Positions 49 through 22,079 of a stretch of DNA of 22,091 nucleotides are shown piece by piece. The stretch is from a virus. The stretch is from IMG/VR virus record IMGVR_UViG_3300042446_002409, positions 1 through 22,091 of that record. One strand, written 5' to 3'. A model generated the notes under the pieces. It saw only the letters and a program-made list of their open reading frames with translations, ran no database searches and was not told the DNA's origin. A program made the translations under genes and the position numbers. How positions within the stretch are numbered: position 1 is the stretch's first letter; each line of letters starts with the position of its first letter.

Positions 49-84
49 AATAAAAAATTAGTTGAAATTGTTTGTTGTTAGATT

Positions 85-447: not shown

Positions 448-489
448 ATTGTTATTTTTTGATTTTGAAAATAATTGGTTAGAATGATA

Positions 490-1605: not shown

Positions 1606-1621
1606 ACCGTTGCGTAACGGT
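1606..1621. promoter_or_regulatory. Palindromic element copy 1 (variant)
   Basis: ACCGTTGCGTAACGGT on the plus strand, one base off the consensus in the central four. It directly touches the protease start codon on the minus strand and carries the flank that, read on that strand, gives GTTG before ACC. There is no room for a Shine-Dalgarno between element and ATG. Confidence 0.85.
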
Positions 1622-1630
1622 CAACCCACC

Positions 1631-1692
1631 AAAAAAAATGGCTGCCCAGCAGTGTCCCCCGGAAGTGCGGTCGGAGTGACGTGCTGGGCAGC
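1631..1692 (-). terminator. Rho-independent terminator upstream of protease gene
   Basis: Read on the minus strand: an 11-bp perfect stem (GCTGCCCAGCA at 1682-1692 read in reverse complement, pairing with 1641-1651), a 30-base loop, then CA and a run of eight T (1631-1638). It follows the 57-aa ORF and ends 25 bases before the protease ATG, separating the two units. The loop is longer than usual for an intrinsic terminator, so an alternative regulatory hairpin is possible. Confidence 0.65.
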
Positions 1693-1732
1693 GTTGGTGT
1701 CAGGCGCATCTGCGCCCGAAGTCTTTCAGAAA

Positions 1733-1906
1733 TTATTTCGGCTTTACCGCAGTTTCTACAATGGTGCCATCGCGTTTGAAAACCTTCACGACAGGAGTAG
1801 CAGCCTTAACTGCCACCTCCAAAGGGGAAGGAGTGCCTACCACGATAGGAGCCGGTGCAGTTGCTTTTTCTGGTTTGACGGATTTGGTATCTTCAGTAGT
1901 GCTCAT
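1733..1906 (-). CDS. Small Pro/Val/Lys-rich protein, 57 aa
   Basis: ATG at 1904-1906, TAA at 1733-1735. The protein begins MSTTEDTKSVKPEKATAPAP and ends FKRDGTIVETAVKPK. The N-terminal half is Pro/Ala/Thr/Lys-rich and looks disordered; the C-terminal half has a short beta-like segment. No family recognised. It lies between the 187-aa gene and the protease, with palindrome copy 2 (1940-1955) upstream and a terminator downstream, so it appears to be a one-gene unit. Position in the head module suggests a small virion or assembly protein, which is inference only. The clean palindrome-gene-terminator layout is the best argument that it is real. Confidence 0.6.
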   Translation of the reverse strand: MSTTEDTKSVKPEKATAPAPIVVGTPSPLEVAVKAATPVVKVFKRDGTIVETAVKPK

Positions 1907-1939
1907 TTTGTTAGTGTATTTCTTTTAGTTTATCGTTGC

Positions 1940-1955
1940 ACCGTTACGTAACGGT
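1940..1955. promoter_or_regulatory. Palindromic element copy 2
   Basis: Perfect ACCGTTACGTAACGGT with the late-class flank (GTTG before ACC on the minus strand). It stands 33 bases upstream of the 57-aa ORF start and 11 bases beyond the stop of the 187-aa gene. It is the only late copy not touching an ATG. Confidence 0.85.
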
Positions 1956-1966
1956 CAACTGTTCCA

Positions 1967-2530
1967 TTAGCCGCGTATGATCAATTTGCCCGCACGATTG
2001 AGCAAGCTAGAGCCAGCACCAATCATCGCTCGCCGCGCACCTGGCACAGCAGCCGCGACAGCTCCCGCACCTAACAATCCCGCACCAGTCACCTTTCCGA
2101 TTTTCTTTTTGTAAGCCATCGCCATGTCATCAGGATTCGCCGCCACACCAGAGATGAATTGCCCACCATCATTGCGGCTGCGATCGGCGAAGTTTTTTAC
2201 CCGCAACCGAGCAAAGAAATCTTTCTTCTTCGTCGCTGGCTGTATCACCGGCACCAACTCGCTGATGGAAATATCGGCCCCGTAGGTAGGCTCATCATCG
2301 CGCTCATTCACAGAACGATTGCGGATCTTGTAGCGCACCGTCGCCGTGCCCTCTTTCGCCATCGACATCAAGGAACCATCCTTAACCCCACTGACATAAA
2401 GCGAGGGAGCTGAAGAACCACAAAGACTAGGGTAATCGCTGTTCTCATCGCGCTCTAACGAAATGAATTCCCGAGTCTTCAATTTTTCTGCGAAATTACG
2501 CATTTTTCGTGCCAGATACTTTTTGTTCAT
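1967..2530 (-). CDS. Basic protein with Gly/Ala-rich C-terminus, 187 aa (possible internal virion protein)
   Basis: No family recognised. Residues 1-146 are mixed and basic, with repeated aromatic-basic pieces (KMRNFAEKL, LRVKNFADRS). Residues 147-187 are a Gly/Ala-rich hydrophobic stretch (TGAGLLGAGAVAAAVPGA) ending in basic residues, like the hydrophobic segments in the two genes upstream. It is the last gene of the 560-321-187 unit, 20 bp after the 321-aa gene. The gap contains a short odd palindrome (GAAAAGTAACTTTTC) but no Shine-Dalgarno. Position between portal and protease, with Gly-zipper-like segments, suits a protein packaged in the head and ejected with DNA; this is inference. Confidence 0.7.
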   Translation of the reverse strand: MNKKYLARKMRNFAEKLKTREFISLERDENSDYPSLCGSSAPSLYVSGVKDGSLMSMAKEGTATVRYKIRNRSVNERDDEPTYGADISISELVPVIQPATKKKDFFARLRVKNFADRSRNDGGQFISGVAANPDDMAMAYKKKIGKVTGAGLLGAGAVAAAVPGARRAMIGAGSSLLNRAGKLIIRG

Positions 2531-2550
2531 AACGGGAAAAGTTACTTTTC

Positions 2551-3516
2551 TTAGCGGCGGATGTTCGCACCAAAGTAGCTATCGCGGTTCAATTTCTCAC
2601 CGCTCATCTTGGTTCGCTTGATATGCTCGGTGTAAGGAGTGCCGAAATTTCTTCCTTCCAAACGCGAGCTCAATTCATGCACAGCATTCTCCAGCGACGA
2701 TAGACCCACTAGCTTTCGACCTTTGCCAATCACCTTCATGATCCCGCCTTTGGATTTCTCCAAAATCTCACGACCACCTTTCATTGCTTTGCCTTTTAAT
2801 CCCGCACGGAAAGCAGGGTCTTTCATGCTACCGTAGCCAGACTGCACGCCTTTTTTCGCACTGGTATAACCAGACTGCACCGAGCTTTTTGCCTTGCCGT
2901 AGCCAGACTGCACCGCACGTTTCGCGTCACGACCCGTCTGCTTTGCCGCATCGACATACTCGTTGCCAGGAATCGAGTCACCAACAACTCGGCGCAATTT
3001 AAGATTCCCCATATACGCTTTGCCACCTCGGTACGCACCGTAGCCAGCAGCACCAGCACCCACGGCAATCGCGCCGTCACGACCGATGTTACGTTCGCCA
3101 TCTTGCGCAGCCAGACCATACATTTTGCCACGGCCTTTGGAAATGCCAGAAGCAGCCTTGCGCAGCAGGCTAGAAGATTTTGCCATCACATTTCCAGCAG
3201 CATCGCGGAGCTGGCCTTTTGCCGCACCGGGGAGAGATTTGATTTTTTTCTTGGATGCCTCAATCGCTTGAGCACCAGCCTTTTTATACATGCCCTTACG
3301 CGCTACGAGTTTGCCGTAATCATCCACCGCACCCGCCGAGTTGATCACTTTATTACGAATCGTCTTGCCACCACGGTAAGCACCGTAGCCAGCAGCCCCC
3401 GCCGCCGCACCGCCAGCAATAGTCTGTGCAGCGCGCTGGTCAGCGTCATCGGTGAAATGTTTCAAGCGAGAATCCAGTCGAGCTGCCAGTGAGTGAAGTT
3501 TACTATGTTGTTTCAT
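2551..3516 (-). CDS. Basic, repeat-containing protein, 321 aa (possible internal virion/ejection protein)
   Basis: No family recognised. Two Gly/Ala-rich hydrophobic segments (about 32-50 and 148-165) each end in the same nonapeptide GYGAYRGGK (43-51, 158-166), suggesting an internal duplication. A second repeat, VQSGY plus six residues, occurs three times at exactly 11-residue spacing (202-228), visible in the DNA as a 33-bp period. The protein is rich in Lys and Arg throughout. It sits in the middle of the three-gene unit, 21 bp after the 560-aa gene, with AT-rich spacing and no Shine-Dalgarno. Positive charge plus glycine-zipper-like segments would fit a DNA-contacting internal head protein that enters a membrane on ejection, but nothing proves it. 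Confidence 0.75.
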   Translation of the reverse strand: MKQHSKLHSLAARLDSRLKHFTDDADQRAAQTIAGGAAAGAAGYGAYRGGKTIRNKVINSAGAVDDYGKLVARKGMYKKAGAQAIEASKKKIKSLPGAAKGQLRDAAGNVMAKSSSLLRKAASGISKGRGKMYGLAAQDGERNIGRDGAIAVGAGAAGYGAYRGGKAYMGNLKLRRVVGDSIPGNEYVDAAKQTGRDAKRAVQSGYGKAKSSVQSGYTSAKKGVQSGYGSMKDPAFRAGLKGKAMKGGREILEKSKGGIMKVIGKGRKLVGLSSLENAVHELSSRLEGRNFGTPYTEHIKRTKMSGEKLNRDSYFGANIRR

Positions 3517-3537
3517 AAATAATTTTGCTATGCACTT

Positions 3538-5220
3538 TTAGTTTCTGTCAACCTTCACGGACGGAGCCGCCACACCGCCGTTACGGGAGTGATACCCTCC
3601 GCTGGCAGTCGCCGCTTTTGATGCCGTCTTGCCCATCGCTTTGCCTTTCCGCATGGCACGGCCACCAGCCAGCCCCGCGACCGCCGCCGCCGCTACTGCA
3701 CCCTTCCAGAGCTTGCGCTCGTTCTCCGCTTTCTCATGCCAGCGCTTGTCGCGGCGATCGCGCTTGCCAGCACCAGGAGCAAACACCCGCGCCGATCTGC
3801 CGCGAGGATCCCGCACGTCCCAACCAGCATCGTAGGCCGTGTCATCGAAGTGAAACACACTAGATGCCGGTGTGGAAAATTCCTTGTTCAGCACGCGGCG
3901 GCTTTGGTTGTTTTTGCGAAAATTATCCACGACGCTTCCCGCCATCAATCCACCCACACTGCCGATCAATGCACCTTGCTTCATCCCCATTCCTTTTCTT
4001 CCTCGCAGCGCGCCGACAGCAGCACCACCGACGAGGCCAGTGTATCGCCCAGCATTTCGCTTCGCCACTGCCTTGCCACCTTTTTCTTTCTCGGGGCTGA
4101 CATGCACCTGTCCATCATAGCCGACACGATGAATAACTTTATCTCCCCATCCATCTTTGAATTCAATCACCCGCGCCGCCGGAGTAGCGTAACGCGCACT
4201 CATGTCGAAGGTATCAGGCATCACGCTGTTGACTTTTCTTTTCACGTAATCACTTCCTTTCCGGAATCCACGATCCACTTTGCCACCAGGGTTCTTCTTG
4301 ATGTGTCGTGCACCAATTAGCAGACCGCCACCGATCGCCGCCGACTCTACACCTTTACGAAACCATGATTTTTCCCACTCGCGCTTTTTCTTGCGACCGC
4401 TGGCATCCACCTCACGCGGCTTGCCACGCAGCACCGCCACGCTATCCTTAGCCAAGGCCCCGCCGCGATTCGCCACCTTGCGGATTGTACCAGCCTTATT
4501 GACTGCGGCTCTCACTACCTGAGCGTGCATCACCGGCACATCGGCAACAATCGGACGACCTTCCGTATCTTTTTTATAATAAGATTTCTGATAGCCTGCT
4601 GCTGTCTTGAGAGGATTCGCATACTGGTTCGTGGAGACATCCTTGAGCTGCTCTTTTCCTCCAAAATGATAAACGCTAGATGCTGCCGTGGTGAATACTT
4701 TCTTTTTCAAAACGCCACCGATATTTTTGCCCCAACGCGAAAACGTCGGCACGTAGTCTTTCACTACTTTCTTTGCACGATCGCCCACTTCATCGATCAC
4801 GGCCGCCGCGACTTTCTTCGGCTCATACTGTTTTTTCAAACTGCGGATCGAGTGAACGCCGTAAGCACTGGCACCAATGCCAGCCGCCCCAGCTCCCACG
4901 GCCGCCGCCGTGCGCATGTTTTCATGAGCGGTGGATTTCTCTTGCCATGGTTTGCTGGCAAACTCAAACACCCGCGATGCTGCGGTAGATGCACCAAAGC
5001 TCGCGCTCTGCAATTTCTCAATCTCAGCACGCCGACGCGGATTACTCACCGCGCCATAAATGCCGCCCAATGCTGCGCCCACTCGCGCACCTTTGTAGCC
5101 GCTCGCGCCGCCATGAAGCTGTCCACCTAAAAAAGCACCAGCCGCCGAGCCCACAATCGCATTGTTCAGCCGCGCCCCACGGAGCTTCTTTTTCTTTTCT
5201 TCAGAAATTTCATTCGCCAT
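3538..5220 (-). CDS. Large basic Gly-rich protein with four-fold 10-residue motif, 560 aa
   Basis: No family recognised. Glycine-zipper-like hydrophobic segments occur near 21-58, 104-122, 293-304, 394-430 and 506-521, separated by Lys/Arg-rich linkers. A distinctive motif, [ST]T[AP]A[SA][SR]V[FYI][EH]F, occurs at 78-87, 177-186, 345-354 and 449-458. The ATG touches palindrome 5221-5236, so this is the first gene of a unit with the 321- and 187-aa genes. In a lambda-like order one expects only the protease between portal and decoration protein; these three are an insertion of unknown function. Internal virion (ejection) protein is the most economical guess because of position, charge and membrane-active-looking segments. 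Tape measure is less likely, given the position among head genes and the absence of long coiled coil. Confidence 0.8.
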   Translation of the reverse strand: MANEISEEKKKKLRGARLNNAIVGSAAGAFLGGQLHGGASGYKGARVGAALGGIYGAVSNPRRRAEIEKLQSASFGASTAASRVFEFASKPWQEKSTAHENMRTAAAVGAGAAGIGASAYGVHSIRSLKKQYEPKKVAAAVIDEVGDRAKKVVKDYVPTFSRWGKNIGGVLKKKVFTTAASSVYHFGGKEQLKDVSTNQYANPLKTAAGYQKSYYKKDTEGRPIVADVPVMHAQVVRAAVNKAGTIRKVANRGGALAKDSVAVLRGKPREVDASGRKKKREWEKSWFRKGVESAAIGGGLLIGARHIKKNPGGKVDRGFRKGSDYVKRKVNSVMPDTFDMSARYATPAARVIEFKDGWGDKVIHRVGYDGQVHVSPEKEKGGKAVAKRNAGRYTGLVGGAAVGALRGRKGMGMKQGALIGSVGGLMAGSVVDNFRKNNQSRRVLNKEFSTPASSVFHFDDTAYDAGWDVRDPRGRSARVFAPGAGKRDRRDKRWHEKAENERKLWKGAVAAAAVAGLAGGRAMRKGKAMGKTASKAATASGGYHSRNGGVAAPSVKVDRN

Positions 5221-5236
5221 ACCGTTACGTAACGGT
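5221..5236. promoter_or_regulatory. Palindromic element copy 3
   Basis: Perfect ACCGTTACGTAACGGT touching the ATG of the 560-aa gene, with late-class flank. On the minus strand a weaker hairpin (about 5275-5305) and a T6 run (5256-5261) precede it, repeating the terminator-palindrome-ATG order seen at the protease. Confidence 0.88.
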
Positions 5237-5255
5237 CAACCGTGAGGGTCATCAC

Positions 5256-5305
5256 AAAAAAGATGGAGAGGGGCGGGGGGTATAGGCACTCCCATGCCAC
5301 CCCCT
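5256..5305 (-). terminator. Possible imperfect terminator upstream of the 560-aa gene
   Basis: Read on the minus strand: outer GGGGGT/ACCCCC and inner GGCA/TGCC arms around a TGGGAG loop with a small bulge, then a C-rich spacer of about 14 bases and T6. The long spacer makes it a weak intrinsic terminator. It is recorded because it repeats the layout at 1606-1692. Confidence 0.3.
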
Positions 5306-5341
5306 ACTGCGCTCTTGCGCATCGCCCACAACTTTTACGGG

Positions 5342-5488
5342 TCAATCATCCGTGTCACCTAATGGCAATTCGGGGTGAGGTTCTACCCAAGAACTTTCAG
5401 CGCGGAGTTTGTCTTTCACTCCATGCACTAGCGTATCGATCACCATGCTGTCATGCACACTGATGGTCAACGAGTGCGAGATCTTCAC
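5342..5488 (-). CDS. Possible small ORF coupled to recombinase remnant, 48 aa
   Basis: GTG at 5486-5488 overlaps the stop of the recombinase remnant as GTGA; stop at 5342-5344. The peptide begins with a GTG-coded residue followed by KISHSLTISVHDS and ends LPLGDTDD. No family recognised. The 4-base overlap is the only argument for it, and since the upstream gene is a remnant it may be meaningless. The rest of 5237-5484 shows no other convincing gene. Confidence 0.25.
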   Translation of the reverse strand: MKISHSLTISVHDSMVIDTLVHGVKDKLRAESSWVEPHPELPLGDTDD

Positions 5489-6051
5489 GCGGATGGAATC
5501 TCATGACGACATGAGAATGCTTTCAGCCGCTCCCGCATGGGTGGCATTGTGGACTTCGGAGCCCAACCAGCGGGAGGCATGATGGAGAACCATTCCCGGG
5601 CATCGTTTTCGTCCACAATTTCGCGGTAGTGGCGGAAGATCATTTTCGGGGAGTTGCCTGCCTCCAGAGAGGTTCTTGCGACATCGCCAGTCTCTGCTAC
5701 CCGATAGCTGATGAACGGGTGTCTGAGGGCATTCTGACGCCAGCCACCCGGGATCTGTGCTTTCACGGCAGTATCACCCAAGGCACCGGAGTAGTCGTTG
5801 ATGGTGAGTATCGGACCCGTATCTTCTCGCCATGGGGCGAGCCATGCCTTGAGGTTCTCGGAGAGTGGCACCAGTCGCCGTGCGGCGGTCTTTGCTTTGC
5901 TTCCAGCGATCTCGATGTGTCCTCGATCCCACTTGATGTCCTCCCAGTCCAGTCTCGCGATTTCTGCTGACCGGATGCCGGCGAATCCGCCAATGGCAAT
6001 CAGAGGTAGGAGCGGGAGGGCAATGAGCTGATGGTGCGTTTTTCTTCGTAT
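5485..6051 (-). pseudogene. 5'-truncated tyrosine recombinase (phage-type integrase) remnant
   Basis: The open frame runs from just after a stop at 6052-6054 and has no ATG upstream of the catalytic domain; the first plausible start (GTG at 5869-5871) lies inside it. The translation carries the catalytic half: FAGIRSAEIARLDW (box I Arg), SKAKTAARR (beta-hairpin Lys), NALRHPFISY (box II Arg; the usual His three residues before is Asn), EAGNSP (Asn where His/Trp is common) and MIFRHYREI with the nucleophile Tyr. The N-terminal arm-binding and core-binding domains, usually about 150-200 residues, are missing; upstream frames show nothing like them. The pattern matches integrases I recall from Verrucomicrobia. 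It is probably a non-functional relic of an integrative element within the late module. Confidence 0.8.
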
Positions 6052-6763
6052 TCATGGTCGTTTGTGCGTTGGTATGTTGACCGTGGTGACGCAGGGTGCG
6101 CGTTCCTATACGGCCATTTTGTGTGAAATCCGTGTGGAATTGCTGGAATTCTGTCGCGGATCTCAAGGGAATGTGAGCCCTGACCAGCAGCAGCCAGCTC
6201 CCCGGAAATCCGGTTATGCTGGCATGTCGGCTTTGAGTTCTCATTCATCTGTCACACATCTGCCAGATTGGTGCCTTCGATCAATGTCTTTTTTCGCATG
6301 CATAGACAGCGTTCCAAACTCTAGCTCTATTTTTCATAATCACTGGACCCAGAGATTTGCTTTTGGAACTCGCGGAATCACTTTTTTGCTTTACTAACAT
6401 CCAATGTGGGTATAGGACATTCTTGCGCTTTGTCATCAAATAAATGAATGTAACGTAGGCCGGAACAAGCATTTGATTGCTAGTATACCAGCTTTGAATC
6501 ACCCTGATTACGTTTTGATAGGGGCGATTGGCATGGAGAATTTTGCTGAACCTCGCATGAGAAAAATATTCGAAAGTGGCCGCCCCCCATTTCAATCTTG
6601 ACTTCAATCTCATGATTAACTATATCCACTTGTTACCAAACAACAAACATTTATTAAAACATCAAAGTGCGAAAACTATGAATTCCAATTCAAAGAAAGG
6701 CAAAATTCGGCCGGATGGCTTGCGAACTTCCATTGCCTGTGTAGTATTTCATTTACCGACATT
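6052..6763. other. Intergenic stretch of 0.7 kb, no convincing gene
   Basis: This stretch lies between the recombinase remnant and the coiled-coil gene. It becomes AT-rich to the right of about 6250. Open frames exist on both strands (110 codons on minus at 6281-6613; 29-63 codons on plus ending at 6767), but none has a recognisable domain or supporting context. The plus frame ending at 6767 overlaps the next ATG as ATGA and could be a short leader ORF starting at 6679. No palindromic element of the phage type is present. Confidence 0.4.
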
Positions 6764-7174
6764 ATGAATCAGAATTTTGAGCAAATACTCGTACCTCAAC
6801 TTCTGAAAGACATTGAGCGACCATACAATATTCTTTTAAAATACCCAGGGTCTGTTCCTGACGAGGTGTTCAAATTGACAAAAAAAATTGATTCGGTATC
6901 TGCTAAAATTGCCGATTATCATCAAATTAAATTGAACCAAGCAGAAGGTGAGACTGAATCCTTAATTGATGCGGTTGTGACGGAAATCAATTCATTGCAA
7001 GCAAATCGCCGGAAAAAAAAGTTAGTTCGCTTACTAAATCTCATACAAGTACTAGGAGAAAGAAAAAAATCATTACTCGAGTGTCTCAATAAACGCCTAG
7101 AAACTATGACAGATCTTGTGTATGGAAGGCCGCCTGGTGATAACATCACCGAAGATTGGAGGGAACAGTTATAG
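6764..7174 (+). CDS. Coiled-coil hypothetical protein, 136 aa
   Basis: No family recognised. The protein is almost entirely helical in character, with heptad-like Leu/Ile spacing from about 10 to 120 and a basic patch (NRRKKKLVRLL). It ends in a short Gly/Pro segment. The start, gacattATG, has the CATTATG context shared with several plus-strand genes further right. It lies on the opposite strand to its neighbours, between the recombinase remnant and the HTH gene, so it is probably cargo of the same integrative relic. Low GC relative to the late genes supports separate origin. Confidence 0.6.
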   Translation: MNQNFEQILVPQLLKDIERPYNILLKYPGSVPDEVFKLTKKIDSVSAKIADYHQIKLNQAEGETESLIDAVVTEINSLQANRRKKKLVRLLNLIQVLGERKKSLLECLNKRLETMTDLVYGRPPGDNITEDWREQL

Positions 7175-7195
7175 TCACTTGGTGTCGAGTCTGAC

Positions 7196-7462
7196 TCATT
7201 TCACCGAGTCGATCTGGTATTGCTTCCGCAGCGTATCGAGAACAGCAGCGGCATCGTAGAGGAAGAAACGATTCCCGAGTTGCAGGTAGGGAATTTTGCG
7301 CTTGCGCGTCCAGTCGTCGATGGTGCGAGTGCTGACCGACAGACGCTTGGCGAGTTCTTTCTTTTTGATCAGAACTGGAGCACTTGTGATGGTGGCTACC
7401 GATGTTTCGACCGGGTGGCTACTATTCATTGTGGTGTGGTTCGTTGTGATTACAGCTTTCAT
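7196..7462 (-). CDS. Excisionase-like helix-turn-helix DNA-binding protein
   Basis: 88 aa. After a Thr/Ser-rich N-terminal tail, residues 31-80 form the compact winged-HTH typical of MerR/excisionase-type proteins: KKELAKRLSVSTRTIDDWTR is the HTH, followed by the wing around KIPYLQLGNRFFLY. Such proteins bind att or promoter DNA to direct recombination or transcription. ATG at 7460-7462 is used here; the second ATG (7427-7429) is equally possible and would remove the odd tail. It is oriented toward the recombinase remnant, a common HTH-integrase pairing, with the coiled-coil gene in between. It follows the 48-aa gene by 21 bp and could be read from the portal transcript. Confidence 0.8.
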   Translation of the reverse strand: MKAVITTNHTTMNSSHPVETSVATITSAPVLIKKKELAKRLSVSTRTIDDWTRKRKIPYLQLGNRFFLYDAAAVLDTLRKQYQIDSVK

Positions 7463-7483
7463 GGTTACGCATGGATAAGAATG

Positions 7484-7630
7484 TCAACGAATGGCCTCTC
7501 TGTTTTCTTCCTGCGCAATATTGCTCGCCTTGTGAATATCGCGACGAATGCCATCACGCGCTTCAAACAACGCCGTGCGGTATTGCGCCACACTGCGTTC
7601 TAAAATCTTATCTAGCAAATCATCTTCCAT
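7484..7630 (-). CDS. Small helical protein after portal, 48 aa
   Basis: ATG at 7628-7630, TGA at 7484-7486. The protein begins MEDDLLDKILERSVAQYRT and is charged and helical throughout. It starts 24 bp after the portal stop, on the same strand, so it is probably part of the portal unit. No family recognised. Coding character (charged heptads, no rare breaks) and tight spacing support it; function unknown. Confidence 0.55.
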   Translation of the reverse strand: MEDDLLDKILERSVAQYRTALFEARDGIRRDIHKASNIAQEENREAIR

Positions 7631-7654
7631 ACACTCATTCTTTACCGTCAACCG

Positions 7655-9310
7655 TTACTGCAAAATGCTTTGCGCCGTGGCGTAATCCACGCCGTAAACA
7701 CTCACCAAAGTATTGCGCGCCGTATCACGATCGATCTCGCCTTTGCCCACACTCGCCAATAGATCGATGATCTGTTTCGCGCCCTTATCGCCGATCTCGC
7801 CAAACAATCCAGGCGGCGGGGGAGGGGTGTCGCTAACGCCGCTTTTCGCTTTCTCCATCGCCGATAGCAACTCGGTAGGATTCCCCAAGCTCTGCACCAG
7901 TAACTCAAGGGGGACGCCATCACGCACAGCGATCTTTTTAAGAAGCTGAATCTCCGCACTGGCCTCGTTCGCTAGGTCGGCAAAATCACTCCCTAACTCA
8001 GCCGCCCACTTGGTGCGAGTTTTCACGCCATACTGCACCATCGTCGCATCGGCCTGTACCTGATGGCCCACATCGCCGGTGATCGTCGGTCCAAATTGCC
8101 AGTTTCCTTTGTTCCAGTTTTTCGTGGCACGGATGTCTTTCTTGGCAATGCCGATCAGCAGCACCCGCTTTTTCACGCGCTCCAGTAGAGTGTTGACGAT
8201 GATCTCCTGCCAACGACGAAACGTGCGCTGCGCTTGTTGCACTTCCAGACGTGCGGTGACACCGCCAAAGCTCGCCATGTTATAGACAAAGCCATACGGT
8301 AAATTCATCCCGATCGCAATCTCGCGGATGATCGCATCCACCAGATTCATAAACGCACCATTCGGGCGTTGCGTGCCGGGGGCAAAGTCAATGCCCTCAC
8401 CATCGGTCAGCCGCACCACAGATCCCGCTTGCGCGGCAAACGTCGGCAAGCCGCCAGTCGTCTTACCCGCTTTGTCCCAGTCCAGTCCATTCGTAGCATT
8501 CGGATCCTTGAGACGAATGAAAGCCGCCCAGCTCGATGCGAATTTTGCCGCGATTTTCTCAAAACCAAAAAGCTCATACAAATCCTGCGCATGAGGAATC
8601 ACCGGCTTCAAAATCGAAACGCCATGATACTGATCACTACGCGTCGGCTTGAACAGATGGATGAACCGCCCAGGTGTGATGTCGCCCTCTTTTTTATACT
8701 GGTTGTTCAGCGTGCGCTGGTAGATCTCGTAGTGTTTCACTTTTCCACGATCATCTAGCACGATGCCATTGATATTCGTCTCTGACTGGACATGCTGTTG
8801 AGGATTGCCGATGCGGTCACTCTCGATCGCTTGCAGTCGATACTCCATCGTCTTGGGATCGAAATGCTCCACCCATCCATGCTCACCGTCGCGAATCGTG
8901 GAGCGCAACCCCAGCTCGGCCATGCTACGCAGACGGTGACGACCCGTATAGTCGCACTCGCCGCACCAGTCATGGAAATATTCTTCATACTCGGTGTCGG
9001 CCTTTTCATCACCGGTAGCCGCCTGATACTCCAGATTGCCCACGGTATACATCGCGCATCGATCCAGAATACCCGCGACGATACAGAAAACTTCTTCCAT
9101 TTCCCGCGCCGCCCAGATTGCATTGATACGATCGCGCTGTTTCCTAGGTGCTTCGGATGCTCCCTGTGAATGGCCAGTGGGGGATGCTCCACGCGCTCTG
9201 CCGCCGCCAGTATCAAAGTTTTTCAGATTCTCCCGCGCCTGCGAACGCCGCACAGCCGCCGTCGGAAAGATCATGCCTAGCTGACGCTCATACCAATTCA
9301 GTTTACCCAT
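7655..9310 (-). CDS. Phage portal protein, lambda gpB family
   Basis: 551 aa from the ATG at 9308-9310. An in-frame TTG at 9320-9322 lies inside the palindrome and is less likely. The portal forms the dodecameric ring at the head vertex through which DNA enters and leaves and to which terminase and neck proteins bind. Evidence: the arginine-rich N-terminal region with RDRINAIW; a central GRFIHLFKPTRSDQYHGVSI (the 'r..q.RGvs' signature of lambda-type portals); then AFMNLVDAIIREIAIGMNLPY and FGGVTARLEVQQAQRTFRRWQ (stem and wing helices). A Pro-rich break (DTPPPPPG) separates a C-terminal helical tail that may be a lineage extra. Length is close to lambda gpB (533 aa). It lies downstream of the gpW-like gene as in lambda. 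Confidence 0.92.
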   Translation of the reverse strand: MGKLNWYERQLGMIFPTAAVRRSQARENLKNFDTGGGRARGASPTGHSQGASEAPRKQRDRINAIWAAREMEEVFCIVAGILDRCAMYTVGNLEYQAATGDEKADTEYEEYFHDWCGECDYTGRHRLRSMAELGLRSTIRDGEHGWVEHFDPKTMEYRLQAIESDRIGNPQQHVQSETNINGIVLDDRGKVKHYEIYQRTLNNQYKKEGDITPGRFIHLFKPTRSDQYHGVSILKPVIPHAQDLYELFGFEKIAAKFASSWAAFIRLKDPNATNGLDWDKAGKTTGGLPTFAAQAGSVVRLTDGEGIDFAPGTQRPNGAFMNLVDAIIREIAIGMNLPYGFVYNMASFGGVTARLEVQQAQRTFRRWQEIIVNTLLERVKKRVLLIGIAKKDIRATKNWNKGNWQFGPTITGDVGHQVQADATMVQYGVKTRTKWAAELGSDFADLANEASAEIQLLKKIAVRDGVPLELLVQSLGNPTELLSAMEKAKSGVSDTPPPPPGLFGEIGDKGAKQIIDLLASVGKGEIDRDTARNTLVSVYGVDYATAQSILQ

Positions 9311-9326
9311 ACCGTTACGCAACGGT
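9311..9326. promoter_or_regulatory. Palindromic element copy 4 (variant)
   Basis: ACCGTTACGCAACGGT touching the portal ATG, with the late-class flank. The change is in the central four bases only. Confidence 0.85.
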
Positions 9327-9340
9327 CAACCACCGCTGAT

Positions 9341-9634
9341 TTATAAACCACGGCGGCTCACCCCGCTGAAATCCACCGTGCCGCGCCGTCCACGGTACGG
9401 CGCTGGAGTCGCGGGCTCGGAGCCAGGATCGCCGGATGGAAACTTTTCATTCTTAATCCGCGTCGCCGCCTGCAGCCGATCACGCAGTTCATTCACATCT
9501 CGCGAGTGGTTGACGTTACTCGATCCTTGGCTCACGAATCCACCGGCCAGAGATTTCTTCAGTGTCACCAGCTCGGCCTCCAGCTCCGCTTGTGTAAATC
9601 CACGATAAATTTCTTCCCACGCCCCTGTCGCCAT
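9341..9634 (-). CDS. Small head-completion candidate (gpW-like position)
   Basis: 97 aa. The first 65 residues are predicted helical (EIYRGFTQAELEAELVTLKK, then NELRDRLQAATRI) and the tail is Gly/Pro/Arg-rich and disordered. Size, alpha-helical N-terminal domain and place immediately before the portal recall lambda gpW, which closes the packaged head and accepts gpFII. Sequence similarity to gpW itself is not obvious, so the call rests mainly on position. ATG at 9632-9634 touches palindrome copy 5. It is the first gene of the late module; the terminase expected before it is not present. Confidence 0.55.
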   Translation of the reverse strand: MATGAWEEIYRGFTQAELEAELVTLKKSLAGGFVSQGSSNVNHSRDVNELRDRLQAATRIKNEKFPSGDPGSEPATPAPYRGRRGTVDFSGVSRRGL

Positions 9635-9650
9635 ACCGTTACGTAACGGT
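9635..9650. promoter_or_regulatory. Palindromic element copy 5
   Basis: Perfect ACCGTTACGTAACGGT touching the ATG of the gpW-like gene, with the late-class flank (minus strand GTTGACCGTTACGTAACGGT). A T6 run precedes it on the minus strand (9665-9670), without a clear hairpin. Confidence 0.88.
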
Positions 9651-9708
9651 CAACATTCCCCCACAAAAAACACCTTGCCCTCACCGACGGACACGCTACC
9701 TTTTACTC

Positions 9709-9927
9709 ATGCCGAAAAAACCATTTCGCCTCCCTCTCTGGTTCGCCATACCTGCATGGACGGCGGTGATCGTCACCATTATCATTGCCAGCAAGCCGAT
9801 CCCCAAAGACAAAGATCCGCGCACGGCTCGCGAAAAACGCATCAACGCAGAAGACCAGCTCCGCCAAGAACGCCTCCAGCGCGCCGTCCAAGATGAGCTC
9901 ATCCGCATCGATCAAAAAAATCATTAG
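9709..9927 (+). CDS. Small single-pass membrane protein, 72 aa
   Basis: A short basic N-terminus (MPKKPFR), one strong transmembrane segment at about 9-27 (WFAIPAWTAVIVTIIIA), then a charged helical tail rich in Arg, Glu and Gln. This resembles small membrane proteins of lysis cassettes (holin or spanin-like) or superinfection exclusion, but no family is recognised and no endolysin is nearby. It diverges from the gpW-like gene. No Shine-Dalgarno is visible. The clear membrane topology argues for a real gene. Confidence 0.5.
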   Translation: MPKKPFRLPLWFAIPAWTAVIVTIIIASKPIPKDKDPRTAREKRINAEDQLRQERLQRAVQDELIRIDQKNH

Positions 9928-10022
9928 TCTTATTCGTCCCATCAGTCCTATTTCTTTCCGACGGCCCAGGTCAATTCGCGAGCGGACGGATTTACGTATA
10001 GTTATGATTAGTTAAGCATTTC

Positions 10023-10038
10023 ACCGTTGCGCAACGGT
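10023..10038. promoter_or_regulatory. Palindromic element copy 6 (doubly changed)
   Basis: ACCGTTGCGCAACGGT: both members of one symmetric base pair are changed relative to consensus, so the palindrome remains perfect. Flanks extend symmetry (TCACC...GGTGA). It stands five bases before the 67-bp repeats. Confidence 0.85.
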
Positions 10039-10043
10039 GATTT

Positions 10044-10244
10044 ACTACAAACATAGTAGTTTGTAACTGTCACACGTGAAACGTATAGAGGGTAGAGAGA
10101 CAGTCTCTCTACTACTTTTGTAGTAGTTCGTAACTGTCACACGTGAAACGTATAGAGAATAGAGAGACAGTCTCTCTACTACTTTCGTAGTAGTTTGTAA
10201 CTGTCACACGTGAAACGTATAGAGGGTAGAGAGACAGTCTCTCT
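10044..10244. repeat. Three phased 67-bp direct repeats (iteron/centromere-like)
   Basis: Units start at 10044, 10111 and 10178 with no spacer. Each contains ACTAC-N5-TAGTAGT, a parS-like TGTCACACGTGAAACG (10068, 10135, 10202) and the odd palindrome AGAGAGACAGTCTCTCT. Junctions of units 1/2 and 2/3 form perfect hairpins CTACTAC-TTTT-GTAGTAG and CTACTAC-TTTC-GTAGTAG. Against the chromosomal parS consensus TGTTTCACGTGAAACA the 16-mer matches at 13 positions. Differences between units are few. Function as origin iterons, partition site or operator array is inferred from structure and from the gene that follows. Confidence 0.85.
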
Positions 10245-10277
10245 ACTGAAAATACTTTATAAAGTCATGGAAGAAAG

Positions 10278-10307
10278 TTGACAATTGTATGTAAAATTAC
10301 ATACAAT
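10278..10307 (+). promoter_or_regulatory. Sigma70-type promoter with overlapping 13+13 bp operator
   Basis: TTGACA (10278-10283) and TACAAT (10302-10307) are 18 bp apart. A perfect inverted repeat, CAATTGTATGTAA and its complement separated by AA (10282-10309), covers the whole spacer and the -10. A dimeric repressor bound there would block polymerase; the orphan gene just downstream is an obvious candidate for autoregulation. Confidence 0.75.
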
Positions 10308-10333
10308 TGCGCCCCCACAAGGGGCATGAAATT

Positions 10334-11287
10334 ATGATTACCACTACTTCACTCACTGGATTGCTTGCGGCGCAAGCAATGAAAAATGAATCTAACGAAA
10401 AAGTCTGCGCCTTGCGCGAAAAAATCGGAAACGATTTGGTTTTTTCATCGTTTCCCTATACGGGAAAAAATGAAGACATCACGCCGCGAAATATCGGAGA
10501 CATTGCGCAAGTCATAGAAAACGTCACCCGCTACGTTTCCAAGCAAATCGCGAAATCAATCAATAAAAGCACTTCATTCGGAAAAGAGTTTTCTTCACTG
10601 GATGCGGGCGCAAGATTGATTCAACGCGCGAAAGAAAAAAGCAAGGCAAGCGGAAATTTTTACGCTTTTTCAGAACACGATTTGAACGAAATTCGCGGCG
10701 CAGTCTCTCTATACTTTTCCGCCTATGGCGTGTTTACGTTGCGCCCTTTCAACCTTGCTATCCCAAGAAATTTACTCATGCTTATAGTGAATCACGTGAA
10801 ATCGATTGATTGCCTAGAGTTGAATCGATTTCGCAAGGGTAAACATTCTTCACTGGATGCGTTGCAAGGTGAAAAAAGCGACAGCCTAGAAAGTGAATTT
10901 TCAGATGATGATGAATTTTTCAACCCTAGCAATGAAATTTTCACGCCGCAAGATTTCGCGGAAGATTGCGACGATATCGCGAAAAATAATGAAGATTTCG
11001 ACTCCCTAGCTGAAAAAATTGACGCTATCAATTCAATGATTGATTGCTATCACGATTGCAGCGACTCCCGCAGAAAAGAGGGAGACAGAAAAAAAGACAA
11101 GCAATTTTTTCAAGATTGCCTAGCAATGAACGCATGCGGAAACGGTGAAACCAACGAAAGTTGGAGACAGAAAAAATCACGATGGGTGAAAATAGTCGTG
11201 CGGGGGCATGAAATTATGCGCGAAAATTCAAATGATGGAAAATCATTCAATAATTTTTCCCACCTAGCCACACTTTTCAAATCCTAA
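10334..11287 (+). CDS. Orphan AT-rich gene; candidate replication initiator or regulator, 317 aa
   Basis: No family recognised. From the ATG at 10334-10336 the protein has a mixed alpha/beta N-terminal half (residues 1-170, with helices around ITPRNIGDIAQVIENVTRYV and LNEIRGAVSLYFSAYG), a very acidic middle (about 195-250) and a basic C-terminus (RQKKSRWVKIVVRGHEI). A TTG at 10307 would add nine residues but overlaps the promoter. AAGGGG nine bases before the ATG is a rare plausible Shine-Dalgarno here. The gene has its own strong promoter/operator and terminator, and repeats upstream, so a replication initiator, partition or master regulatory protein is suggested by context alone. Base composition is markedly more AT-rich than the flanking genes. 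Confidence 0.75.
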   Translation: MITTTSLTGLLAAQAMKNESNEKVCALREKIGNDLVFSSFPYTGKNEDITPRNIGDIAQVIENVTRYVSKQIAKSINKSTSFGKEFSSLDAGARLIQRAKEKSKASGNFYAFSEHDLNEIRGAVSLYFSAYGVFTLRPFNLAIPRNLLMLIVNHVKSIDCLELNRFRKGKHSSLDALQGEKSDSLESEFSDDDEFFNPSNEIFTPQDFAEDCDDIAKNNEDFDSLAEKIDAINSMIDCYHDCSDSRRKEGDRKKDKQFFQDCLAMNACGNGETNESWRQKKSRWVKIVVRGHEIMRENSNDGKSFNNFSHLATLFKS

Positions 11288-11293
11288 CATCTG

Positions 11294-11327
11294 AAAAAAG
11301 GCGCGAAAAAAATCGCGCCTTTTTTTT
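11294..11327 (+). terminator. Strong intrinsic terminator after orphan gene
   Basis: GGCGCGA (11300-11306), loop of six A, TCGCGCC (11313-11319) and eight T. A run of six A before the stem allows function on the minus strand too. Confidence 0.9.
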
Positions 11328-11376
11328 AAGATCAGGCAAGCCGTCCGCGCTCGCCATGCGATTTCTTCACTACCTC

Positions 11377-11429
11377 ACCGTTACGTAACGGTGAAACGAA
11401 AAAACACTTTTTCACCGTTACGTAACGGT
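11377..11429. promoter_or_regulatory. Paired palindromic elements, copies 7 and 8
   Basis: Two perfect ACCGTTACGTAACGGT copies at 11377-11392 and 11414-11429, 37 bp apart start to start, upstream of the Ala-rich coiled-coil gene. Both extend outward (TCACC...GGTGAAAC), unlike late copies. The second ends 26 bases before the ATG. Confidence 0.88.
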
Positions 11430-11455
11430 GAAACAATCAACGAAAAACAAACATT

Positions 11456-12526
11456 ATGGCAACACGTAAAAAAGCGGAACCATCCGCAAGCAGTCATGGC
11501 TTTGGTCTAACCATCGCCGCCGCCCTCCTCCTAACACCTGACCAAGCAGCAGATGAATTTGCTGAGCGTGCCAACGTGCGCCGTCTCTGCTTTCAAGACC
11601 AAGGAAAGCTGATTCACTCCATGAATCAAACCGGCTTGCCATCTGGCGAAACGGTTTACGGAATCCTCCGCGCTCGCGGCGTGGGAGAGTCTAGCATCCA
11701 GAACGCCAAGCGCGCTGCGGATGTGATCGCCGAGCTGGTCGCCTCCGAGCTGGTATCGGAAGCCGAACTCGATGCCGTGCTGACTCACCGCTTTGCGGTT
11801 GACTACAAGCGTTGCATCGCCGGAAAAATCACCGCTGAAACAATCGCCGAGATTGTGAAGCAGCCGAACGCTGCCGCCGAGATTGAATGTCTCGCCGCCA
11901 ATGGCAAAACGCTCTCTCAAATGGCTGCCGATGCCGAGACGAAAAAAGCCGCCGCCGCGCAAGCGATTGTGGACAAGCAAAATGCCGATTCCACCGCTGC
12001 CGCCGATGCCGCCGCGAAAGCTGCCACCGCGAAAGCGGATGCAGAGAAAGCCAAGGCCGCCGCCGCCGCCGCGAAAGCGGAAGCAGACAAAGCCACCGCT
12101 GCCGCCACCGCCGAAAAAGCGGAAGCGGAAAAAGTCAAATCTGCCGCCTCTACGGAAAAAGCGGAAGCCGCGAAAGCCACCGCCGATGCCACAAAGTCGA
12201 AAGACGATGCCGCCGCCTTAAAAGCGGAAGCGGAAAAAGTCAAAGCTGCCGCCGCCGCTGAGAAAGCTGCTGCTGAGAAAGCCACCGCCGATGCGGAAAA
12301 ACGCCTGGCAGAACTCGCCGCCGCTGAGAAAGCTGCCGAGAAAGCTGCCGCTTCATCCAAGCCGAAAAAACCAACGCCGGATGACATACTGCAGAATCTC
12401 GCCGCTGCGCTTGCCGCATGTTTCAATCTGCCGATGGACTCCTTAGCGGGCGTCCCGAATATGCTCCTCGCTGCCGCGGAAGAAATCGAAGCCCATCTTG
12501 AAGCCTCCACCTCGAAAGCCGCTTAA
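11456..12526 (+). CDS. Ala/Lys/Glu-rich coiled-coil protein, 356 aa
   Basis: Three parts. Residues 1-155 are a normal globular-looking domain with helix-rich sequence (LPSGETVYGILRARGVGESS; SELVSEAELDAVLTHRFAVDYKR). Residues about 160-305 are a long low-complexity Ala/Lys/Glu region of near-heptad repeats (KAEAEKVKAAAAAEK), TolA-like in composition. Residues 306-356 form a small helical domain (TPDDILQNLAAALAACF). No family recognised for the ends. The start has CATTATG context and lies after paired palindromes; a strong terminator follows, so it is a single-gene unit. It may be a bridging or structural protein, and function is not inferable. The 197-codon minus-strand frame opposite is a compositional shadow. 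Confidence 0.8.
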   Translation: MATRKKAEPSASSHGFGLTIAAALLLTPDQAADEFAERANVRRLCFQDQGKLIHSMNQTGLPSGETVYGILRARGVGESSIQNAKRAADVIAELVASELVSEAELDAVLTHRFAVDYKRCIAGKITAETIAEIVKQPNAAAEIECLAANGKTLSQMAADAETKKAAAAQAIVDKQNADSTAAADAAAKAATAKADAEKAKAAAAAAKAEADKATAAATAEKAEAEKVKSAASTEKAEAAKATADATKSKDDAAALKAEAEKVKAAAAAEKAAAEKATADAEKRLAELAAAEKAAEKAAASSKPKKPTPDDILQNLAAALAACFNLPMDSLAGVPNMLLAAAEEIEAHLEASTSKAA

Positions 12527-17919: not shown

Positions 17920-17996
17920 CACAAACCCAGCGGAATAGCATGTTTTCGTGAATTTTCATACAGAATGTAGAATGTAGAATGTTAATTATCTTATTT
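17920..17996. repeat. Shared 3' flank of FGE gene 1 (repeat with 19808-19871)
   Basis: About 65-75 bp similar to the sequence after FGE gene 2: ACCCAGCGGAATA, CATGTTTTC, GAATTTTCAT, then the stop-proximal TTATTTTTC, with a few substitutions. This copy has a three-fold 7-bp repeat (GAATGTA type) that the other has once. It could be residual gene duplication or the initiation and hairpin sequences of a diversity-generating system. Confidence 0.75.
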
Positions 17997-19544
17997 TTCG
18001 GATGGAACTAGGGCGGGACGGAAGCCGAGGATGATGACCCGGTAGTCTTGGCCGCGCCTGTCCCGGTTGGCCGCGCGGCAGCCATCGGCGCCGTGATTCA
18101 GCGAGCCGCCGCGAAGCACGCGGCGGACGCCCGATGAATGCCCTAATGGATCAGTGCCGCCCGGCAGCTCATTGCCATACCAGTCCAAACACCACTCCGA
18201 CACGTTCCCATGCATATCGTGCAGTCCCCAGGCATTCTGCTTCTTTGTTCCTACGGGGTAGGTCTTAATTCCGCTGTTTTCATCATACCATGCTACTTCA
18301 TCGATCGAACCGCCTGAAAATGGACCCTTTTCTCCTGCACGACACGCATACTCCCACTGTGCTTCGGTTGGTAAGCATACTTTCCAGCCAGCAGGAATCT
18401 CTCCGCTCCCATTCACCTTCTTGATGAACTCCTGAGCGTCAAACCAGCTAATGTTCTCCACAGGCAGGTTATCTCCTTTGAAAGTGCTAGGGTTACTCCC
18501 CATCACTGCGCTCCATTGCGCCTGAGTTACCTCTGTCTTTGCCATCCAGAAGGCTTTACTTAGGGTTACGCTTACCTCATTTTCGTCGTCAGAACGACCG
18601 TCTTCCGTCGACGGACTTCCCATCGTGAAAGATCCCGCCGGACAAAAGGCAAAGGGCATGACCCACTTTCCAGCCAACGGTATATCCAACGTGGCTCCTA
18701 CTCGCCCGGCGCCAATTTTGTGGTATAGTTTGGCCTTTGCTTGAGCAGCTTGTTGCTCAGCCTTGAGTTTTGCTTGAGCAGCTTGTTGCTCAGCCTTGAG
18801 CTTTGCTTCAGCAGCTTGTTGCTCAGCCTTGAGCTTTGCTTCAGCAGCTTGTTGCTCAGCCTTGAGCTTTGCTTTAGCGGCTTGTTGCTCAGCCTTGGCC
18901 TTGGCCTCTACAAATTGTTTGTGTTTGTTTTTAGCTCTCAACCCAATAATTAAAGTTATAATCACTGTCAATGCCGCGATAGTAACATTGATGTAGCTAA
19001 GCAATTGATTCTGATCTTGTTTAGCTCTAAAGCTAATGACTGAAGTCACACACACTATCAATGCCGCGATAGCAACAATGATATAGATAAACATCTCTAT
19101 ATCGGCGCACTTCTTGCAAGTATTATCAGTGATTATTAAATCAGTTTGGGGAACACGACAATTGCATTTTTTGCACTCTACGACACGCGCTGCGATTTCA
19201 GACTTTAGTTTTCTGGCCTTATCTCTCGACATTTTTGCCTCCGCTTGCTGTTGTAGCCATTTCTCTGTACTTTTCCTTTCTCTGTATTCTGCTTCTTGGG
19301 GCTTGTAAGGTAAGCCGTCCACCCATGATACACCAGAGGTACAATGTTGGCATTTATCGCATATTCCCGGCAGCGCCCCGCCGCACCAAGGACATTGCCT
19401 GTTCTTAGGAATTTTTTGCTGTTGATTCTGTGCGTTGATCATTCTTTGCCGCTGCAGCATTGCTGCAACAGCGGCTTGATCTTGAAAATCATTTGGATCG
19501 TAAGACATATAAGGATTGTAATTCAAAGATGATCGATGTCGCAA
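17991..19544 (-). CDS. Membrane-anchored zinc-ribbon/FGE-sulfatase-fold protein 1, with variable region
   Basis: 517 aa from the ATG at 19544; an ATG at 19508 (MSYDPNDF) is an equally good start. Order: Gln-rich N-terminus; zinc-ribbon cysteines C51/C54 and C62/C65/C68; a second set C124/C127/C129 and C143/C146; two transmembrane helices (about 150-172 and 181-203); five copies of an 11-residue coiled-coil repeat (AEQQAAEAKLK); then an FGE-sulfatase/formylglycine-type lectin domain from about 280, with MPFAFCPAGSFTMGSP, LPTEAQWEYACRAG and HGNVSEWCLDW. The C-terminal RVLRGGSLNHGADGC block and the following 25 codons form the likely variable region. The catalytic cysteine pair of true FGE is not complete, suggesting a binding protein rather than an enzyme. 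Confidence 0.85.
   Translation of the reverse strand: MRHRSSLNYNPYMSYDPNDFQDQAAVAAMLQRQRMINAQNQQQKIPKNRQCPWCGGALPGICDKCQHCTSGVSWVDGLPYKPQEAEYRERKSTEKWLQQQAEAKMSRDKARKLKSEIAARVVECKKCNCRVPQTDLIITDNTCKKCADIEMFIYIIVAIAALIVCVTSVISFRAKQDQNQLLSYINVTIAALTVIITLIIGLRAKNKHKQFVEAKAKAEQQAAKAKLKAEQQAAEAKLKAEQQAAEAKLKAEQQAAQAKLKAEQQAAQAKAKLYHKIGAGRVGATLDIPLAGKWVMPFAFCPAGSFTMGSPSTEDGRSDDENEVSVTLSKAFWMAKTEVTQAQWSAVMGSNPSTFKGDNLPVENISWFDAQEFIKKVNGSGEIPAGWKVCLPTEAQWEYACRAGEKGPFSGGSIDEVAWYDENSGIKTYPVGTKKQNAWGLHDMHGNVSEWCLDWYGNELPGGTDPLGHSSGVRRVLRGGSLNHGADGCRAANRDRRGQDYRVIILGFRPALVPSEK
18024..18120 (-). other. Candidate DGR variable region of FGE gene 1
   Basis: Compared with gene 2, flanking codons (RGGS, CRAA, GFRPALVPSEK) are conserved, while the codons between differ almost only at positions 1 and 2 and mostly end in C: CAC/CGC, GGC/AAC, GGC/AGC, AAC/TAC, GAC/CTC, CGC/AAC, GAC/GGC, TAC/GGC, GTC/GAC, ATC/TAC, ATC/TCC. 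That is what adenine mutagenesis of AAC template codons leaves. Confidence 0.7.
18736..18900 (-). repeat. 33-bp tandem repeat, five copies, in FGE gene 1
   Basis: TTGTTGCTCAG recurs at 18750, 18783, 18816, 18849 and 18882, exactly 33 bp apart. It encodes the 11-residue coiled-coil unit. Near-identity between copies indicates recent slippage or unequal exchange; copy number may vary between strains. Confidence 0.9.
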
Positions 19545-19807: not shown

Positions 19808-19871
19808 TTTACAACCCAGCGGAATAACATGTTTTCATGAATTTTCATGTAGAATAGTAATTGTCTTATTT
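19808..19871. repeat. Shared 3' flank of FGE gene 2
   Basis: Matches 17920-17996 over most of its length. In the coding direction it contains CATGAAAATTCATG, a perfect 7+7 inverted repeat within ACATG...CATGT, and then GGGTT...AACCC (complement of 19799-19818), a weak terminator-like hairpin. Confidence 0.7.
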
Positions 19872-22079
19872 TTCAGATGGAACCAGCGCGGGGCGGAAGC
19901 CCAGGGAGTAGTCCCGGCCGCCCGGGCCGTTCCCGAGCCGGTAGGCCGCGCGGCAGCTGGCGGCGTTGCGGTCCCAAGAGCCGCCGCGACTCACGCGGAG
20001 GACGCCCGATGAAGGCCCAGATGGATCGGAGCCACCCGAAAGCTCGTCGCAATACCAATCTTCACACCATTCCCACACGTTCCCGTGCATGTCATGCAGC
20101 CCCCACGCATTCGATTTCTTCGTCCCAACGGCGTGAGTTTTGCTTCCGCTGTTGTCGTCATACCAGGCCACTTGATCGATGGTCCGACCAGAATAGGCCC
20201 CTGTCTCTCCAGCTCTGCAAGCATACTCCCACTGAGCCTCAGTTGGTAGAGCCACTTTCCAGCCTTCTGGGATTACGCCGCTATCATTAACCTTTTTGAT
20301 GAATGCCTGAGCGTCATCCCAGCTCACATTCTCAACCGGTAAGTCATCACCATTCAAGTTGCTGGGGTTATTACCCATAATCGCCGTCCATTGTGCTTGC
20401 GTAAGTTCTGTTTTCGCCATCCAAAATCCTTTGGTTAGCGTCACCTTGACTTGTTTTTCGTCGTCAGAACGACCGTCCTCCGCCGACGGACTTCCCATCG
20501 TGAAAGATCCCGCCGGACAAAACGCAAAGGGCATGATCATCTTTCCCGCTAACGGCACACCAATGGCGACTCCTACTCGACCAGCGCCGATCTCGGTGGA
20601 GAGTTTGGCCTTGGCTTCTGCTGCCTCTCTCTCTGCTTTCGCATTTGCCTCTGCTGCTACCAATTGCGCTTTTTTTTCTTCCTGAATTACATAAGCACTC
20701 AATGATCCGATCGCTACCACGATGAGAAAAATCACGATTGATTTTGTCATCAAAGATTTCTTGCGTGCTTGATGATGAGCATCAATCGTACGCTCAATTT
20801 TTTGATTAAGATCTGAGATTTCAGTCGCGAGTTCAGAATCTTCTTTTATGTCAATTCCTTTGACTTTTCGCAGATTTTCGCGCGCGTCCCTAAAGTTACC
20901 AGCATTTATTTGTGCTTCAAGATCAGCAAATTTTCTCCATTCGGCTAGTTGTCTCTGAAGAAGATAATCAACTTTCTTGTATTCGATGTCAGGGAATCTC
21001 TGCTTGTCATAGATTTTAATCACTCTCTCCGCGCTGCGGAAATTTTCATTGGCTAGATGTGCCTCCGCCTCGACCAGTAACGCAAGGTGTTTCTCGTGCA
21101 GGCTTATGACCTCATCGATGCGTTTATCGACCTTGCCAAGGTGGCCAATCACTTGGTCGTGTGCTACGCCTTTAGAGTGTGCGAACTCATATTTTTCAGC
21201 GCAGGATCCAGACTGTGGTAGATATTGGCGATAAGACTTTTTTCTACCAGGAAGAATAATTCCACCAGTTGACTCACCTCGGTCTTTGATTTCTTGCCGG
21301 GGCATGATTTCTGCACATATCCGCAGTTCCTGATGTAAGTCTATAGAACTTCCAATGATGCACCAATCCAGTGGATTGAGCATGCCACGCTGACGCGCTT
21401 GAGTGCTTGGAAGTTGATTTTTGAGTTCAGCCAATTCCGTTTTGGCGTGCTGCAATTCCCCTAGGCTAACTTTCGGGAATTGATTCAACCAATCGGCTTT
21501 CCAGCCAGATAGTATATTCAATTCCGCATCAGATTGAATGAAAAACGCCTTTAGTGATTCCAAACGATCCTTGATGATTCCCAAAGGATTGTCAGGCAAA
21601 TTACCACTGGCTGATTGTTCGGAGATAAGTTCTGACAGGCTTGAGCGGAAGAGTCGCAGCTCTTTCATGTCCGACATGTCGGTGAGAATGTCAGACTGGC
21701 TTTCCAAAATTTTCAACTGAGCTTGAAGCGCGGCGGTCTTCCTCAAAGCACTATCCTTTGATGCCTCATCAACTGACCGAACTGCGAGAGATTTTTTGAC
21801 CGACTCCAGCGTATCCATGCTATCGACCATTAGGTTGCGCAGTTGCCTGACTTGTTCTGCCTGCTGCTTGCGCATCTCACGCTCAAGTTCATCCGCCTGC
21901 AGTCGTTGTTGTTCGATTGCCAAACGCTGGCGCTCGATCTGGGCACGGTCTGCCTCGATGCGGTTAGCTTTCTCTAGCTCCGCCGTTTGCTTGCGGATCG
22001 CTTCCGCCTGCTCCTTCTGCTGGGCGATCTGTTGGTTGCGCTGGCTGATGGCTGCCATGTGACCCATGGCGTTCAGCAT
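19866..22079 (-). CDS. Coiled-coil, membrane-anchored FGE-sulfatase-fold protein 2, with variable region
   Basis: 737 aa as seen. The frame stays open to the window edge (ENDG before the Met at 22077-22079), so the real start may lie outside. Residues 1-130 are a strongly charged coiled coil (Gln/Glu/Arg); 130-430 are helical, with more coiled coil around 335-425; a transmembrane helix lies near 443-465 (SIVIFLIVVAIGSLSAYVI); a short Ala/Glu/Lys helix follows; the FGE-type domain runs from about 505 to the end. It shares GAGRVG...PLAGK, MPFAFCPAGSFTMGSP, EDGRSDDE, LPTEAQWEYACRAGE and GFRPALVPSEK with protein 1. The topology suggests a cytoplasmic coiled coil and an exported sensor or binding domain. 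It is the first gene of a minus-strand group with the lipoprotein and gene 1. Confidence 0.85.
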   Translation of the reverse strand: MLNAMGHMAAISQRNQQIAQQKEQAEAIRKQTAELEKANRIEADRAQIERQRLAIEQQRLQADELEREMRKQQAEQVRQLRNLMVDSMDTLESVKKSLAVRSVDEASKDSALRKTAALQAQLKILESQSDILTDMSDMKELRLFRSSLSELISEQSASGNLPDNPLGIIKDRLESLKAFFIQSDAELNILSGWKADWLNQFPKVSLGELQHAKTELAELKNQLPSTQARQRGMLNPLDWCIIGSSIDLHQELRICAEIMPRQEIKDRGESTGGIILPGRKKSYRQYLPQSGSCAEKYEFAHSKGVAHDQVIGHLGKVDKRIDEVISLHEKHLALLVEAEAHLANENFRSAERVIKIYDKQRFPDIEYKKVDYLLQRQLAEWRKFADLEAQINAGNFRDARENLRKVKGIDIKEDSELATEISDLNQKIERTIDAHHQARKKSLMTKSIVIFLIVVAIGSLSAYVIQEEKKAQLVAAEANAKAEREAAEAKAKLSTEIGAGRVGVAIGVPLAGKMIMPFAFCPAGSFTMGSPSAEDGRSDDEKQVKVTLTKGFWMAKTELTQAQWTAIMGNNPSNLNGDDLPVENVSWDDAQAFIKKVNDSGVIPEGWKVALPTEAQWEYACRAGETGAYSGRTIDQVAWYDDNSGSKTHAVGTKKSNAWGLHDMHGNVWEWCEDWYCDELSGGSDPSGPSSGVLRVSRGGSWDRNAASCRAAYRLGNGPGGRDYSLGFRPALVPSEK
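19893..19986 (-). other. Candidate DGR variable region of FGE gene 2
   Basis: This covers RGGSWDRNAASC to RDYSLGF. It is GC-rich and its variable codons end in C (GAC, CGC, AAC, AGC, TAC, CTC, AAC, GGC, TCC), unlike the mixed third bases in the rest of the gene. See the matching block in gene 1. Confidence 0.7.

Follow-up and report, generated by a model that had tools for sequence, protein, structure and literature searches.

An orphan gene with its own promoter, operator-like repeat and terminator as a possible moron in a phage of Verrucomicrobiota

The Locus and Its Phage

The window analyzed here is the entire 22,091-bp IMG/VR record IMGVR_UViG_3300042446_002409, a phage fragment. It carries an open reading frame (10334-11287) with promoter, operator-like and terminator sequences of its own, a shift in composition and an array of repeats, and the encoded protein had no relatives in any collection searched. 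The features at this locus are as follows.

10023-10038, unstranded: variant ACCGTTGCGCAACGGT of a phage-wide palindrome, at the left edge of the cassette
10043-10247, unstranded: three direct repeats of 67 bp; every copy carries the near-palindromes GTAGAGAGACAGTCTCTCTAC and TACTAC(N5)GTAGTA as well as the word TGTCACACGTGAAACG
10278-10307, plus strand: sigma-70-type promoter, TTGACA-18-TACAAT, matching the consensus at 11 of 12 positions
10282-10309, unstranded: candidate operator, a perfect inverted repeat CAATTGTATGTAA-AA-TTACATACAATTG (13+2+13) that overlaps the promoter
10311-10325, plus strand: small leader stem GCCCC/GGGGC holding the ribosome-binding AGGGG (10320-10324), by direct sequence reading
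10334-11287, plus strand: focal gene for a 317-aa orphan protein, basic-acidic-basic, from its open reading frame, composition, charge and searches for relatives
11294-11327, plus strand: intrinsic terminator after the stop codon, a stem (11294-11325) plus a T-run
11377-11429, unstranded: tandem phage-wide palindromes (11377-11392 and 11414-11429) that precede the next gene (11456), at the right edge of the cassette

Elsewhere, the window encodes a lambda-type portal (7655-9310), and family profile searches also identified an AAA ATPase, a DUF2201 metallopeptidase/VWA pair and a clamp-like protein. Two metagenome contigs overlap the window. One matches positions 1-8288 at 99.8% identity and ends before the focal gene, and the other matches from 16600 on, being 97% identical at first with parts further on at 90-94%. 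The focal gene lies between these limits and is covered by neither contig.

A tyrosine-recombinase remnant (5485-5871) shows mostly 66-89% identity to integrases of Akkermansiaceae and other Verrucomicrobiota MAGs, and distant relatives of the portal occur in 48 of 260 Akkermansiaceae genomes. Based on these two results, the phage host most likely belongs in or near Akkermansiaceae. The remnant points to such a host and also to a temperate past.

The Focal Gene and Its Protein

The sequence-only reading had described a 317-aa, AT-rich gene with an acidic middle and a basic end, and this description held. The frame runs for 317 aa from an ATG at 10334 and has 41.6% GC. A longer start option, TTG at 10307, falls within the -10 hexamer of the promoter, so the ATG is the likely start. 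Most other genes of the window have 49-59% GC (about 53% in the surroundings), the exception being gene 6764-7174 with 37.5%. The focal gene is thus an outlier in the window in GC, and it is also one in codon usage. Net charge is +6 over residues 1-180, -18 over residues 181-245 and +7 over residues 246-317. The acidic stretch itself, about residues 182-241 (60 aa, net -18), lies between two basic parts.

The focal gene re-uses DNA words far beyond what synonymous shuffling gives. It contains 83 repeated 8-mers, compared with 22 ± 5 in synonymous-codon shuffles (z about 11), while the same test gave z of 0-5 for window genes without evident tandem repeats. An exact 16-bp repeat occurs inside the gene at 10591 and 10846. 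Its ribosome-binding site and start codon, GGGGCATGAAATTATG, recur in frame at 11203-11218.

Searches for relatives left the protein as an orphan. The focal protein matched no family in Pfam, PHROGs, NCBIfam or PADLOC and no sequence in the PDB. Neither the gene nor the protein had a relative among 50,697 phage and 72,556 plasmid records at the protein or DNA level. Peptide words from three different parts of the protein found no relative in IMG/VR, and words from the whole protein found none in GTDB contigs. A full search of about 645 Verrucomicrobiota genomes also returned no relative of the focal protein; as a positive control, it recovered distant relatives of the portal and VWA proteins in Akkermansiaceae, with 28-34% identity. 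Scattered weak genome matches (E up to 1) look like chance, as the open reading frames, read singly, were unrelated proteins or antisense frames. AlphaFold2 run on the single sequence gave a pLDDT of 39 for the whole protein and 45 for residues 44-181, too poor for fold comparison, and Foldseek with these models gave best E values of 0.7-1.0. The modeling suggests a mostly helical protein.

Control Sequences, Repeats and Phage-Wide Palindromes

An own promoter, operator and terminator and an upstream repeat array had been claimed for the gene, and all four were found as sequence features. When the region was shuffled 1000 times, inverted-repeat arms of at least 12 bp never appeared. The placement of this repeat over the promoter suggests a repressible unit, and control of the cassette probably runs through the candidate operator, exerted either by the cassette's product or by a regulator from host or phage. 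The terminator forms 13 perfect pairs (-22 kcal/mol, z -6.5). A scan with Rfam gave sub-threshold chance matches only. The stretch from the end of the repeat array to the gene (10248-10333) is AT-rich, with 34% GC.

The 67-bp units are 89-94% identical to the reference copy, and each contains a near-perfect palindrome, either GTAGAGAGACAGTCTCTCTAC or a one-base variant. No further copies occur in the window, and the exact 21-mer was not found in viral_contigs. An imperfect inverted repeat (9977-9992 and 11338-11353, 81%) flanks the cassette and might mark insertion ends.

The 16-bp palindrome ACCGTTNCGNAACGGT is found phage-wide, often abutting start codons, at these positions.

Window: 1606, 1940, 5221, 9311, 9635, 10023, 11377, 11414, 12803, 12834, 17463
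Contig L004: 3791, 9918
Contig L006: 3053, 6334, 6668, 9280, 9535, 17335, 18024
Contig L007: 1416, 2147

Many leftward structural genes are preceded by GTTG-ACCGTTACGTAACGGT-ATG, in which the palindrome touches the start codon at the expected place of the ribosome-binding site. The rightward genes 11456 and 12821 are preceded by TTCACC...GGTGAA-like pairs spaced 37 and 31 bp from start to start. The palindrome is a candidate operator, stoperator or translational hairpin.

Possible Functions of the Cassette

The context of the gene had been read as initiator-like. Under this explanation, the protein would bind an origin formed by the three 67-bp repeats, melt the AT-rich stretch 10248-10333 and repress its own promoter via the inverted repeat, acting as a replication initiator or copy-control protein. 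Plasmid Rep proteins repress their own promoters in such a manner, and the cassette shares with iteron plasmid replicons the order of repeat array, AT-rich stretch, autorepressor-like promoter under a palindrome and single gene. However, the repeats differ from iterons in size and number: where several direct repeats of ~20 bp with DnaA boxes would be expected, the cassette has three 67-bp units, out of phase with whole turns of the helix. The interval 9900-11460 contains no DnaA box, and the GC skew shows no lasting change of sign around the cassette. Sequence searches of Pfam, PHROGs, NCBIfam and the PDB matched no Rep or winged-helix family, RepA and ParB were likewise unmatched by sequence, the low-confidence structure models gave no fold match, and there was no plasmid relative. 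The orphan status of the gene holds in every collection searched. The initiator reading is without positive support, nothing ties the gene to DNA replication, and we consider this role unlikely. A novel kind of self-contained module for replication or switching, in which an orphan family of a verrucomicrobial phage would bind its own promoter operator as well as the three 67-bp double-palindrome copies of the array, appears similarly improbable.

The location in a divergent control region, flanked left and right by palindromes, would also suit a lysogeny or lytic-switch regulator that binds the phage-wide ACCGTTACGTAACGGT palindromes, its own operator or both. Many-site repressors of such style exist, acting at stoperators (PMC9283540), and the mycobacteriophage L5-type repressor system resembles this phage in that one short, operator-like site recurs many times between genes. 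The site here differs in being a palindrome, and the focal gene is only a candidate for encoding its binding protein. The gene's own promoter bears a different palindrome, no helix-turn-helix family was recognized, and foreign composition would be unusual in a core regulator. We hold such a switch role to be rather doubtful. A divergent sigma-70-like factor is far less plausible. By eye, resemblances occur in the right order and spacing, with region 2 at about residues 52-165, 'SSLDA..GE' and an acidic linker at 172-200, and a helix similar to the recognition helix of region 4.2 at about 270-290; the SSLDA segment is also the best match to verrucomicrobial alternative sigmas. Against 30 sigma factors (primary, alternative and ECF) from host-like genomes, however, the hhalign score was below the best null, and the HMM single-test p values of 0.025-0.065 lay within the shuffles. 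The region 4.2 scan chose a different place (single-test p 0.03), and neither region 2 nor region 4 gave a significant profile match. Because the profile scores stay within the shuffles, we do not claim a sigma factor. The tandem structured repeats upstream of the gene would fit a type III toxin-antitoxin system, with the repeats as RNA antitoxin and the protein as toxin, but here the strong promoter does not precede the repeats; it separates them from the gene, and the antisense-strand fold of the repeats is the more stable one. ToxN-type toxins have about half of the 317 aa of this protein. Neither PADLOC nor Pfam gave a ToxN-, CptN- or TenpN-like match, and this explanation is the most remote of those considered.

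Phages often pick up extra genes. Our best explanation, to which we give an even chance, is that the unit of about 10043-11330 is a moron, an accessory cassette of one gene carried by the phage. Described morons consist of a single open reading frame with its own promoter and terminator, have a foreign composition and sit between phage genes (PMC4378225). At the sequence level, the focal cassette agrees in each of these respects, with one coding region between promoter and terminator, and with 41.6% GC and deviant codon usage next to the portal (54.8% GC) and gene 11456 (58.9% GC). The moron reading is further favored by the operator-like palindrome exactly over the promoter, by the position between divergent gene blocks with the phage's palindromes on both sides, and by the integrase remnant, which indicates a temperate past and a host in Akkermansiaceae. 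The genome search, which found distant portal and VWA relatives and none for the focal gene, fits as well. The cassette differs from morons in its extra 3 × 67-bp palindromic array, which is not a usual moron part. A further trait of morons is insertion between genes that adjoin each other in close relatives, which lack the moron; sister contigs covered the window up to 8288 and from 16600 on, and the prophage relatives were distant. The composition of the gene could also reflect constraint instead.

As a moron, the cassette would have arrived recently from an AT-richer source and settled in an Akkermansiaceae phage or prophage, in the divergent control region that separates the leftward structural genes from the rightward ones. 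The strong promoter would transcribe it on its own, a repressor on the 28-bp inverted repeat would occlude this promoter, and the terminator would isolate the cassette from the phage operons. Expression from a prophage could thereby be possible. The least certain step is the role of the protein, which we guess to be a nucleic-acid-binding regulator or an accessory protein. It may repress its own promoter and perhaps bind a second region, the 67-bp array.

To our knowledge, phages of Verrucomicrobiota have hardly been studied, and the phylum has few genetic parts. A role as regulator or initiator would mean a new protein family, potentially useful as a tool in Verrucomicrobiota. As an accessory gene, it would be a further member of a very large class of orphans.

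Additional Features of the Phage

Inside the structural gene block, the stretch 5485-7462 holds the C-terminal fragment of a broken tyrosine recombinase, together with a small protein of excisionase-like HTH_17 type. This pair adjoins the other AT-rich gene (6764-7174), and the stretch is likely a second insertion.

Three proteins with variable C-termini are candidate targets of a diversity-generating retroelement.

17991-19526, minus strand: candidate target protein
19866-22079, minus strand: candidate target protein
Contig L002, 1425-3653, minus strand: candidate target protein

No reverse transcriptase was found in the three contigs. We take the C-termini of these proteins to be FGE-sulfatase/C-type-lectin-like. 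Their last about 45 residues differ at scattered NNC-type codons in an otherwise conserved frame, a pattern also seen in targets of diversity-generating retroelements. On the same sister contig (L002), outside the window, positions 4548-10553 read as one block encoding a helicase-like protein and a large DNA-methyltransferase-like protein, possibly a restriction or defense locus.
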